Below are positions 1,496 to 3,841 of a DNA stretch of 37,073 nucleotides, in pieces. Within the stretch, counting starts at the first letter, position 1. Each line of letters starts with the position of its first letter. Location of the stretch: assembly GCA_021300495.1 (NCBI GenBank), contig JAJTDK010000011.1, forward strand, positions 1 through 37,073. The letters run 5' to 3'. Under the pieces are notes generated by a model. That model made no database searches. It was not told where the DNA came from and was given only the letters and a program-made list of their open reading frames with translations. Both the position numbers and the translations under genes were made by a program. Source of the DNA: Limnohabitans sp. (GTDB lineage: Bacteria; Pseudomonadota; Gammaproteobacteria; Burkholderiales; Burkholderiaceae_C).

Positions 1496-2961
1496 TGCTA
1501 GTTCTTGACCACGATCGCGCAGGTGGCTATTGGGGAGCGGTGTATGTGTTCACCGCCATCAAAGGCTTGCAAGTTGTCATTGACGGCCCGGTGGGCTGCG
1601 AAAACTTGCCTGTCACTTCGGTCTTGCATTACACCGATGCATTGCCCCCTCATGAGTTGCCCATTGTGGTCACAGGTTTAGCCGAAGAACAGTTGGGCCG
1701 CGAAGGCACAGAGGGCGCCATGCGCCGTGCGCACGCCACACTCAACCCCGACCTGCCCTCCGTGGTGGTGACTGGCTCCATTGCCGAAATGATTGGCGGC
1801 GGCGTAACGCCCGAAGGTACCAACCTGCAACGCTTCTTGCCGCGCACCATCGACGAAGATCAGTGGCAATGCGCCAACCGTGCCATGTACTGGCTGTGGC
1901 AGCAATACGGCATGAAGCATGTGCCCAAGCGCGAACGCAAAGAGGGCGAGCGCCCTCGCGTCAACATCATTGGACCCAGCTACGGCACCTTCAATTCGCC
2001 CAGTGACTTGGCTGAAATTCGCCGCTTGGTACAAGGCATCGGCGCCGACGTCAACATGGTCTTCCCCTTAGGTTCACACCTGGCCGATGTGTCGCGTTTG
2101 GTTGAAGCCGATGTGAACATTTGCATGTACCGCGAATTTGGCCGAATGCTTTGCGAAGCCTTAGAGCGCCCTTATTTGCAAGCGCCCATTGGCTTGCACA
2201 GCACCACCAAATTCTTGCGCTCTTTGGGCGAATTGCTTGGCCTCGACCCAGAGCCCTTCATCGAAAGAGAAAAGCACAGCACCATCAAACCGATTTGGGA
2301 TTTGTGGCGCTCTGTGACACAAGACTTTTTTGGTACCGCCAACTTTGGCGTCGTGGCCAACGAAACCTACACACGCGGCATTCGCCATTTCTTAGAAGAT
2401 GAAATGGGCCTGCCTTGCAACTTTGCCATCTCGCGCATCGCGGGTGCCAAAACAGACAATGCAGAAGTGCGCAGGCTGGTCACTGAAAAAACGCCGCTCA
2501 TTTTGTACGGCAGCTACAACGAGCGCATCTATTTGGCCGAGTGTGGTGGCGGCGGCATGATGAAAACCAGTTTCATTCCTGCCAGCTTTCCCTTGCCCAT
2601 CATTCGGCGTCATACCGGCACGCCATTCATGGGTTATGCCGGCGCCACTTACATCATTCAAGAGTTTTGCAACGGCCTGTTCGACGCGCTGTTCCACATC
2701 CTGCCATTGGGCACCGAGATGGACAAGATTGAAGGCACCTTGGGTCGCTCTGCGCCCAACACCACTGTGCCGTGGGAGCCAGAAGCACAAGACAGATTAG
2801 AGGCTTTGTTGGAGCAACAACCGGTGTTGGTTCGAATTTCAGCAGCCAAAAGAATGCGCGATCAAGCAGAGCGAGATGCACGGGAAACCGGCCGCTCTCA
2901 TGTTGAAGCGGAAAGATTCACAGAATTGTTCGGTCAAGCGAATGAAGGAGCACATGCATGA
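1495..2961 (+). CDS. bchZ: Chlorophyllide a reductase subunit BchZ
   Basis: BchZ is the partner of BchY in the nitrogenase-like, oxygen-sensitive chlorophyllide a reductase that makes the bacteriochlorin ring. The 488-residue length is normal for the family. The N-terminus [20 protein letters not shown] and the early motif [20 protein letters not shown] carry the conserved cluster-region Cys and the helix typical of BchZ. Later motifs include [19 protein letters not shown] and [16 protein letters not shown]. The start ATG overlaps the bchY stop by one base. Its 3' end overlaps a possible 52-codon reading frame (2958-3116), and pufB follows 147 bases further on, the usual bchZ-puf arrangement in which puf transcription can begin upstream within bch genes. 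The identification rests on whole-protein similarity to the known family. Confidence 0.97.
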
Positions 2962-3116
2962 AAGATGTGAACTTGAATTCGTTGGGTCGTCCAATCTCTC
3001 GGCCAGTCCGAGGGTTCACCTGTTGCGGTGTCAAAGCCACAACAGTCCGTCCTGTATCTGCAAGGGTACAGGGAGTCGCCGAAAGGCATTTAGAAAGAGG
3101 CACAAACTATGACTGA
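2958..3116 (+). CDS. Possible small ORF in the bchZ-pufB leader (52 residues, unrecognised)
   Basis: A 52-codon frame starts with ATG inside the bchZ stop (ATGA overlap). A GGAG sequence at 2947-2950 lies seven bases upstream, so ribosome access is plausible. The predicted peptide begins [14 protein letters not shown], is rich in Arg and Val, contains a Cys-Cys pair and has no membrane segment. It ends just inside the pufB start region, overlapping pufB by eight bases. It occupies the position that pufQ holds in Rhodobacter but shows no resemblance to PufQ that I can see. The same DNA contains two RNA hairpins, so it may be only a structured leader, perhaps with translation as a regulatory device. 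Treat it as doubtful. Confidence 0.25.
3020..3045 (+). promoter_or_regulatory. Leader hairpin 1 upstream of pufB
   Basis: An inverted repeat CTGTTG (3020-3025) and CAACAG (3040-3045) encloses 14 bases that can extend the stem by G-C, G-C and G-U pairs after one C-A mismatch. It lies in the transcribed gap between bchZ and pufB and is followed at once by a second, stronger hairpin. Known puf mRNAs carry 5' stem-loops that slow decay of the pufBA segment; a similar role here is inferred. The stem is short and could be chance. Confidence 0.35.
3051..3072 (+). promoter_or_regulatory. Leader hairpin 2 with GCAA tetraloop upstream of pufB
   Basis: CCTGTATCT (3051-3059) pairs with GGGTACAGG (3064-3072) as nine consecutive pairs: six Watson-Crick, a U-G, a C-G and a U-G. 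They close a GCAA loop (3060-3063), a GNRA-type tetraloop known to stabilise RNA hairpins. The pufB ribosome-binding site (AGAAAGAGG, 3092-3100) and ATG (3109) remain free downstream. The most likely role, by analogy with 5' hairpins of Rhodobacter puf mRNA, is protecting the antenna message from degradation. The same bases also read TGT-N12-ACA, but the hairpin explains that symmetry better than a PpsR site. Confidence 0.55.
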
Positions 3117-3252
3117 TGCAGCTAACCCTTCAGGGCTGTCAGACGAAGAAGCCCAAGAGTTTCACCAGTACTTCATACAGGGCTACCTGTTGTGGGCTGT
3201 GGGAGCTTTCTTCGCCCACAGCTTAGTGTGGATCTGGCGTCCCTGGTTCTAA
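3109..3252 (+). CDS. pufB: Light-harvesting 1 beta polypeptide PufB
   Basis: This 47-residue antenna polypeptide of the LH1 ring binds bacteriochlorophyll a in the inner membrane around the reaction centre. The translation from ATG 3109 starts [20 protein letters not shown] and ends WRPWF. It has the family pattern: an acidic soluble N-terminus with a conserved His19, then one membrane helix (about residues 22-43) with the BChl-ligating His37 in the AFFAHSLVWIW context. The C-terminal WRPWF is typical of LH1 beta chains. A ribosome-binding site AGAAAGAGG lies eight bases before the ATG. The usual next gene would be pufA, but an extra 74-codon gene intervenes here. Confidence 0.95.
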   Translation: MTDAANPSGLSDEEAQEFHQYFIQGYLLWAVGAFFAHSLVWIWRPWF

Positions 3253-3276
3253 AAAAACCATTCAACGGAGGTAAGT

Positions 3277-3501
3277 ATGACCCACCCGAACGATCGCATG
3301 ACAAAGGTTCAATCTCACGACCATTTTGATGGTTATGGGGTCACCTATGTTTTGCTGTTTTTAGTGTTCATGGTTCTCGCTGTAGCGGGACAGTTGCTGG
3401 TCCTTGACTGGCGTAGCTGGCTCCCTGGAGCCGAGGGTTCAACGGGCACTTTGGACGGCGTGAAGTCTTCTGTCTATACCGTTATTTCTCAATTGAGTTA
3501 A
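3277..3501 (+). CDS. Unrecognised small membrane protein between pufB and pufA
   Basis: This 74-residue protein starts MTHPNDRMTKVQSHDHFDGY, has one strongly hydrophobic helix at about residues 22-44 (YVLLFLVFMVLAVAGQLLVL) and then a loop DWRSWLPGAEG followed by an amphipathic tail ending VYTVISQLS. A good GGAGG ribosome-binding site sits at 3266-3270. The helix has no His, so it is not an ordinary bacteriochlorophyll-binding alpha or beta chain. Its size and single-helix topology resemble accessory LH1 polypeptides such as PufX or the gamma subunit, but I see no sequence match to these and do not assign it. The place between pufB and pufA, in the same transcript and spacing, strongly suggests a part in the LH1-reaction-centre core (inference). 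Confidence 0.8.
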   Translation: MTHPNDRMTKVQSHDHFDGYGVTYVLLFLVFMVLAVAGQLLVLDWRSWLPGAEGSTGTLDGVKSSVYTVISQLS

Positions 3502-3515
3502 GAAAGGAAATTACT

Positions 3516-3713
3516 ATGTGGCGCATGTGGCGTGTGATAGATCCCCGCAAGGCAATAGTTCTAACTGGACTTTTGATTGCCTTTATTTCAACATCGATTC
3601 ACCTGATTCAAATCAGTGGCGATCGGTACAACATCAACAGCTGGCATCCCGATACGGCCAAGGCCGCAGCGGCGAAAGCACAGCCACAAAATGCGGCTTT
3701 GCCGCAAAAATAA
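3516..3713 (+). CDS. pufA: Light-harvesting 1 alpha polypeptide PufA
   Basis: This is the alpha chain of the LH1 ring, which pairs with PufB and coordinates bacteriochlorophyll a. The 65-residue product begins MWRMWRVIDPRKAIV, the standard alpha-chain start (MWRxWxxxDPRxA). One membrane helix follows, with the BChl-ligand His29 in the STSIHLIQ context. The C-terminal extension after the helix is unusually long and rich in Ala, Lys and Gln (residues 44-65). The ribosome-binding site AAGGAAA lies just before the ATG. A strong hairpin follows the stop, separating the antenna part of the message from pufLMC. The identification is firm. Confidence 0.96.
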   Translation: MWRMWRVIDPRKAIVLTGLLIAFISTSIHLIQISGDRYNINSWHPDTAKAAAAKAQPQNAALPQK

Positions 3714-3733
3714 GGACCACTGGTCTTTATGTC

Positions 3734-3790
3734 GACAGACGCACCTCGCTCAATTTATTTGAACGATGCGTCTGTCCTTTTATTTTTTAA
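3734..3790 (+). terminator. pufA-pufL intercistronic hairpin (partial terminator / mRNA stabiliser)
   Basis: GACAGACGCA (3734-3743) pairs perfectly with TGCGTCTGTC (3767-3776). The pairing continues inward through TCG/CGA and TCAA/TTGA with a small bulge and one mismatch to a 5-base loop. A T-rich run follows (about 3778-3788). It looks like an intrinsic terminator placed inside the operon, after the antenna genes and before the reaction-centre genes. In Rhodobacter a hairpin at this same place protects pufBA mRNA from 3' decay, giving many more LH1 than RC subunits; the same role is inferred here. Confidence 0.8.
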
Positions 3791-3841
3791 TTTGAAGCCT
3801 ACAAGACCTCACAAACAGTCAATCGGTCGGAGGATGCAACC

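Follow-up and report, generated by a model that had tools for sequence, protein, structure and literature searches.

What is the small gene that separates pufB from pufA, the LH1 beta and alpha genes, in the photosynthesis gene cluster of Limnohabitans sp., and from which protein was it derived? The cluster is located on contig JAJTDK010000011.1 (assembly GCA_021300495.1), of which positions 1 to 37,073 of the forward strand were analyzed; this stretch of 37,073 nucleotides is referred to as the window, and its genome as the window genome (G000). A preliminary description, made from the sequence alone, had reported a 74-codon gene with a GGAGG ribosome-binding site at this place, and the gene (3277-3501) was confirmed. 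The same description held that in known puf operons the genes for LH1 beta and LH1 alpha stand next to each other, which is incorrect, since exceptions have been published for Rubrivivax gelatinosus and Roseateles depolymerans. In the accessible text of the respective papers, ORF2 of R. gelatinosus (Nagashima 1994) lies directly upstream of pufA with no function given (PMC12817894), and the locus number of ORF74 of R. depolymerans falls between those of pufB and pufA (PMC10037100). By position, name, and group, these genes (ORF2/ORF74; Nagashima 1994; Suyama 2002, 2023) are probably the same as the window gene, and the name ORF74 is kept here.

The gene is therefore already known, and what is new is its proposed origin from beta, its loss of the ligand His, a reciprocal pattern of C-terminal tails, and a link to genes at the pufQ site. 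ORF2 was tested and rejected as the ancestor of pufA2 in PMC12817894, the accessible part of which does not raise a beta origin. In the literature surveyed (mostly without subscription journals), neither ORF74 as a beta paralogue nor an RC-LH1 structure from Burkholderiales was found among the matches listed.

Sampling of puf operons

Genomes were sampled by pufM, for which 48 of 399 in the order sample, 60 of 90 in the genus sample, and 62 of 399 in the family sample scored above the cut-off (the three samples overlap). The loci read exclude five pufM-positive genomes of the genus sample and a single fragment from each of the other two samples. A total of 161 loci from 161 genomes were read and 147 were classified; the other 14 were left out because their alpha or beta genes fall past the end of the contig or went undetected (one of these, G017, has a short PufB and ORF74 on a contig without pufA). 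Counts were taken from an HMM-based table with hand corrections for G902, G233, G1013, and G937.

ORF74 and its place in the operon

The features of the segment are provided in Table 1. The window PufB retains its His ligand and lacks a C-terminal tail, with 3 residues after WR. ORF74 has a single hydrophobic helix without His, and two His residues (14 and 16) precede this helix. An AlphaFold2 model, of low overall confidence (mean pLDDT 63), placed helices at 13-47 and 58-73 and contributes these two helices only. A charge rule was tried for topology and rejected, given that beta itself breaks the rule. Length was nearly constant, with 73-75 codons in 122 of the 129 operons in which starts were set and exactly 74 in 106.

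Table 1. Features of the pufB-pufA segment, numbered from the first letter of the window
Feature	Position	Strand	Basis
pufB, short LH1 beta, 47 aa, ends ...IWRPWF	3109..3252	+	NF040862, 70.5 bits (cut-off 61)
GGAGG ribosome-binding site of ORF74	3267..3271	+	sequence; 5-nt spacer to ATG
ORF74, predicted pigment-less LH1 beta paralogue, 74 aa, ATG start	3277..3501	+	homology, conserved position and length
ORF74 transmembrane helix, codons 20-44	3334..3408	+	conservation, AlphaFold2 model; F28 and A35 kept family-wide
ORF74 codon 39 (CAG, Gln), aligned with the His that ligates BChl in LH1 beta	3391..3393	+	alignments, residue tally
ORF74 WRSWLPGAE, codons 45-53, most conserved block of the family	3409..3435	+	pN/pS 0.088
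ORF74 C-terminal tail, codons 54-74, predicted helix 58-73, common to long PufB	3436..3498	+	conservation, AlphaFold2, profile
pufA, LH1 alpha, 65 aa	3516..3713	+	NF040861, 32.2 bits (just below cut-off 35); Pfam LHC, 23.3 bits
Hairpin in the pufA-pufL gap	3734..3776	+	fold of 3714-3841, -35.7 kcal/mol, z -3.1

The hairpin would bound an mRNA segment containing pufB, ORF74, and pufA; its placement resembles that of the element that delimits the stable pufBA transcript of other purple bacteria. Upstream, the bchZ-pufB gap contains a 52-codon frame (2958-3116) that overlaps the beginning of the pufB gene; it had no NCBIfam match and is probably not a gene, although its place corresponds to that of Rubrivivax ORF1, which lies directly upstream of pufB. 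In the window genome (86 per cent complete), Pfam LHC matches at E 0.1 were confined to pufB and pufA, and at this setting an LH2 (puc) gene was not found. According to a review, however, Limnohabitans is exceptional in having LH2 genes within its cluster (PMC12654162).

Homology to LH1 beta

ORF74 had been described as matching neither PufX, PufQ, nor the LH1 gamma chain. For PufX and gamma, and for protein W as well, this was borne out among PDB sequences, since these proteins were absent from the 43 matches (to E 10) of a 60-row ORF74 profile and were rejected as relatives. The protein can nevertheless be matched to LH1 beta and, more weakly, to genes that occupy the pufQ site in other purple bacteria. 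Searched alone, the window protein gave a sub-threshold Pfam LHC match (9.6 bits, E 1.5) and no NCBIfam match, and phmmer against PDB sequences returned the long-tailed LH1 beta chains 8z81_B (2e-7), 7xxf_B (3e-7), and 9m8m_B (3e-6). With the 60-row profile the best E value was 9e-17, and the 43 matches consisted of 40 light-harvesting chains followed by three cytochrome bc1 subunits; of the 40 chains, 30 are named beta, the other 10 bear a generic name, and none is named alpha. Of the 60 members, 28 matched the NCBIfam PufB model (E <= 1; best 2e-10) and 13 matched Pfam LHC (E <= 1; best 4e-6). Other models matched a few single members (best 4e-5 in NCBIfam and 5e-5 in Pfam), presumably through the hydrophobic helix.

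In a profile-profile comparison, ORF74 was aligned to 11 long beta chains over 72 of its 74 positions (probability 99.7, E 2e-25). An origin from alpha was rejected, with a probability of only 3.9 per cent in the comparison to a PufA profile, which agrees with the accessible text of PMC12817894. In a tree of 114 beta-like proteins, calculated from few columns, the 59 ORF74 rows formed one side of a branch with a support of 100/100. Judged by these comparisons, ORF74 is a paralogue of LH1 beta. No PDB sequence scored as ORF74 itself would, although a structure in which ORF74 was left unmodelled would not show up in such a search, and no match was found in a plasmid collection at E 1e-3.

The homology extends over the helix and the WRPW block. 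Long-tailed PufB (7xxf_B, 8z81_B, and 9m8m_B, and in Burkholderiales G203, G276, and G306) resembles ORF74 in a near full-length profile match, in the WRxWLPG block, and in a tail of about 28-30 residues. ORF74 differs in that the ligand His is replaced, the N-terminal SGLT..EAxEFH motif is lost, and the gene stands separately beside a normal short pufB. The motif is present in the 11 long beta chains, whereas positions 2-19 of ORF74 vary.

Lost pigment ligand and selection

Residue 39 of ORF74 aligns with the BChl-ligating His of LH1 beta. This His was absent from 131 of 132 ORF74 proteins and present in the PufB of all 147 operons, and so ORF74 lacks the ligand of a working antenna chain. 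The residues found at this position were Q (76), K (34), T (7), A (4), L (3), N (3), S (2), and G, C, and H (one each), with the Lys mostly confined to one clade of the genus of the window (32 of 34) and the sole His in G937. Two Curvibacter MAGs (L032 and L033; 5998-6225) keep His at the ligand position, L032 being outside the count of 132; the residue could be either ancestral or regained.

ORF74 is under purifying selection. Across 809 moderately diverged, non-independent pairs, mean dN/mean dS was 0.29 for ORF74, 0.15 for pufB, and 0.21 for pufA. Within ORF74 (794 pairs), pN/pS was lowest in WRxxLPGAE (0.09), higher in the tail (0.30) and the helix (0.41), and highest in residues 1-19 (0.58). 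In 59 sequences of less than 80 per cent identity, G51 and V62 were invariant and W45, R46, P50, A52, E53, V66, Y67, and S71 were kept in 54-58. F28 and A35, which were kept in 56 and 55 of the 59, have equivalents that presumably lie on the pigment-facing side of beta. Given that the N-terminal 19 residues are variable, in contrast to the strongly conserved N-terminal motif of beta, ORF74 may not pair with alpha.

Reciprocal distribution of the C-terminal tail

Among the 147 classified Burkholderiales operons, 132 had a short PufB and ORF74, 11 had a long PufB without ORF74, four had a short PufB without ORF74, and none had both a long PufB and ORF74. ORF74 was present in all 48 classified operons of the genus of the window and in 84 of 99 in other genera. 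The description of a real single-helix gene without the ligand His is thus supported, and the gene is conserved at the same place in 132 operons. Whether it always lies between pufB and pufA had been left as a question, and the 15 operons without it are the exceptions. Its absence from relatives with an intact puf operon, which had been named as a result that would refute a structural role, does occur in these 15, yet 11 of them have a tailed PufB and the other four a related gene upstream. Searches of the whole genomes of the 15 returned matches only at PufB or at the pufQ-site gene, and 20 of 20 family members without pufM had no ORF74 match.

After WR, 28 residues were counted in 129 of 130 measured ORF74 proteins and 27 in the other, compared with 3-5 in short PufB and 29-30 in long PufB (G1013, read by hand, is the eleventh long PufB). 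A tail-bearing puf protein was therefore encoded in all 138 Burkholderiales operons with enough sequence (123 with ORF74, 11 with long PufB, and four with a pufQ-site gene). Outside the class, a profile search that favours tailed proteins found 17 genomes, with a long PufB in 12 (G447 is a thirteenth) and a short PufB in three. Three genomes outside the order (G1334, G1541, and G688) had a short PufB with no pufQ-site match at E 0.01 and no ORF74-like second gene among the matches listed. The tail rule is not strict outside Burkholderiales, and some purple bacteria lack a tail-bearing puf protein.

On a pufL tree, the long-PufB operons sit among the ORF74 operons with five label changes, two of which are forced by well-supported branches, so that loss, recombination, or transfer must be added to any account of the pattern. 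The short-PufB operons without ORF74 require two changes on the same tree, at least one of them forced. The presence of pufC was rejected as an explanation of the three states, given that a four-haem cytochrome gene was located 3' of pufM in 20 of 20 loci (11 with long PufB, four with short PufB and no ORF74, and five with ORF74) and does not discriminate between them.

Relatives at the pufQ site

The four short-PufB operons without ORF74 (G092, G243, and G212 from one genus, and G959) all have an ORF of 75-90 aa between bchZ and pufB, here called the pufQ site. A pufQ-site gene was found in none of the 123 ORF74 operons in which at least 500 bases upstream were read and in none of the 11 long-PufB operons; G008 was left out of this count since its contig ends inside pufB. 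Similar pufQ-site genes were detected in other orders of the class (G1256 and G1346) and, elsewhere in the phylum, in seven genomes from other classes, presumably Alphaproteobacteria; each of these seven also has a long PufB.

An ORF74 profile matched a five-row alignment of pufQ-site proteins with a probability of 97 and an E value of 8e-11, and the best real pufQ-site protein scored 56 bits, compared with 13 bits for the best of 2000 region-kept shuffles. The score of ORF74 against long beta was higher (87 bits). Profiles also related pufQ-site proteins to long beta (E 1e-9), and the pufQ-site genes L295, L296, L298-L302, L304, and L305 are profile-related to LH1 beta. When pufQ-site proteins were included in the tree, they separated from beta and the ORF74 rows fell in between, which weakens the case for a straight descent of ORF74 from beta. 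ORF74 is thus homologous to proteins of the pufQ site without being located between bchZ and pufB.

The PufQ model PF05398 was not among the matches for ORF74 or for the pufQ-site proteins tried. Against the window ORF74 it gave nothing at E <= 10 (HMMER filters drop most weak matches), and a search of the window genome gave no match at ORF74. Across 32 genomes it passed its cut-off in G734 only. The G436 pufQ-site gene scored a sub-threshold 15 bits, and in the window genome a score of 20.5 bits fell on an unrelated place (C29); the G734 PufQ in turn scored only 5 bits against the pufQ-site profile. According to PMC5725709, PufQ, which is encoded in the puf operon, is small and has a single helix, and its C-terminus is conserved whereas its N-terminus varies; ORF74 is similar in each of these respects. 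ORF74 differs from PufQ in being located after rather than before pufB, in having no PF05398 match listed, and in being closer to beta, and its profile homology is to pufQ-site proteins outside the Rhodobacteraceae-type PufQ.

Expression signals

The suggestion that ORF74 lies in the most strongly expressed part of the transcript agrees with the accessible account of Roseateles depolymerans, in which pufA, pufB, and ORF74 are co-transcribed as the major 1-kb puf transcript and are the top three falling loci in an SP70 sigma-factor mutant (PMC10037100). In the window, the duplex energy of the Shine-Dalgarno (SD) sequence was -10.8 kcal/mol for ORF74, compared with -5.8 for pufB and -5.6 for pufA. 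Means over 129 operons were -7.9 for pufB, -7.7 for ORF74, and -7.1 kcal/mol for pufA, values that are biased given that the pufB and ORF74 starts were picked partly by SD sequence. Translation signals as strong as those of pufB and pufA suggest more than one copy of ORF74 per core. Synonymous divergence, tried as a proxy for expression, differed little between pufB, ORF74, pufA, and pufL.

Proposed role and alternatives

The reading that we favor, at roughly even chances and from sequence comparison, is that ORF74, having diverged from a copy of a long-tailed beta, would serve the RC-LH1 core as an accessory subunit without pigment. One ancestral long-tailed LH1 beta gene, a state that long PufB would preserve, may have been duplicated with complementary loss, so that the His stayed in the pufB copy, which gave up the tail, and the tail stayed in the ORF74 copy, from which the His disappeared together with the N-terminal motif. 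ORF74 would insert in the manner of beta, with its N-terminus in the cytoplasm and its tail in the periplasm, and would lie against LH1 chains through its retained helix face and the WRxWLPGAE block. Its tail helix might then be laid on the periplasmic side of the core, where ORF74 could shape or stabilize the ring, or a passage through it. As the tail belongs to a ring protein in long-PufB species, a tail that is carried separately should still act at the ring.

In the main rival, ORF74 would correspond in Burkholderiales to the pufQ-site proteins and would be a small membrane factor that supplies pigment or helps to assemble LH1 while remaining outside the finished complex. This is possible but less probable than the favored reading, and it is the main rival since a pufQ-site gene stands in for ORF74 in four operons, a replacement that would suit an assembly factor equally well. 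The profile match to the pufQ-site alignment, the mutual exclusion of the two genes in short-PufB operons, and the likeness to PufQ itself also favor it. ORF74 nevertheless scores higher against long beta than against any pufQ-site protein, PF05398 reached neither ORF74 nor, above threshold, the G436 pufQ-site gene, the 11 long-PufB operons have neither gene, and the seven genomes of other classes pair a pufQ-site gene with a long PufB. A broader and rather doubtful version of the split would build ORF74 into the Burkholderiales LH1 ring in several copies, as a third chain that lacks pigment (alpha, beta, and pseudo-beta); with the pufQ-site proteins it would then form an unrecognized, antenna-derived family without pigment, and PufQ-type factors too may descend from beta.

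As a special case of the accessory subunit, ORF74 might be a ring-gap subunit for quinone exchange by analogy with PufX or protein W, which we consider unlikely. PufX, protein W, and LH1 gamma are likewise small, pigment-less membrane subunits of RC-LH1, although they are likened to ORF74 by function and not by sequence; protein W has three helices, unlike ORF74, and a gamma-like chain of Rhodopila passes through the membrane in the opposite direction in the accessible description. PufX, protein W, and missing-gamma gaps occur at similar places in the accessible text of PMC7806223. A beta-like helix without a ligand would break the pigment chain, whereas the translation signals point to several copies per core and PDB sequences yielded no match to PufX or protein W. 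That ORF74 is a working variant of an antenna subunit, in which Gln or Asn has replaced His as the pigment ligand, seems improbable. Gln and Asn do ligate chlorophyll in plant antennae, these residues make up 79 of the 132, and F28 and A35 are kept, but 52 of the 132 have K, T, A, L, S, G, or C, variation at the ligand position contrasts with the constancy of the core block and tail, and the beta N-terminal motif is gone. A decaying, functionless duplicate would explain the missing ligand and the diverged N-terminus and yet is hardly credible, being contradicted by the selection on the core block, the near-constant length, the almost invariable tail, and retention of the gene in most operons.

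Should the favored reading be correct, an ORF known since 1994 without a function would be given an origin, and it would show clearly how one antenna subunit can be divided, with the pigment left to one half and the tail to the other. Three natural arrangements within one order (a long beta, a short beta with ORF74, and a short beta with a pufQ-site gene) make the role of the tail testable, and the design of the Burkholderiales RC-LH1 core becomes directly testable as well. The relationship may also bear on the origin of PufQ-like proteins. Chain 4 of PDB entry 8k5o, which the accessible text of PMC12817894 identifies as the RC-LH1 of Halorhodospira halochloris, is a single-copy, 105-aa beta-like chain in a solved complex and may offer a precedent for beta-like subunits that occur once per core.
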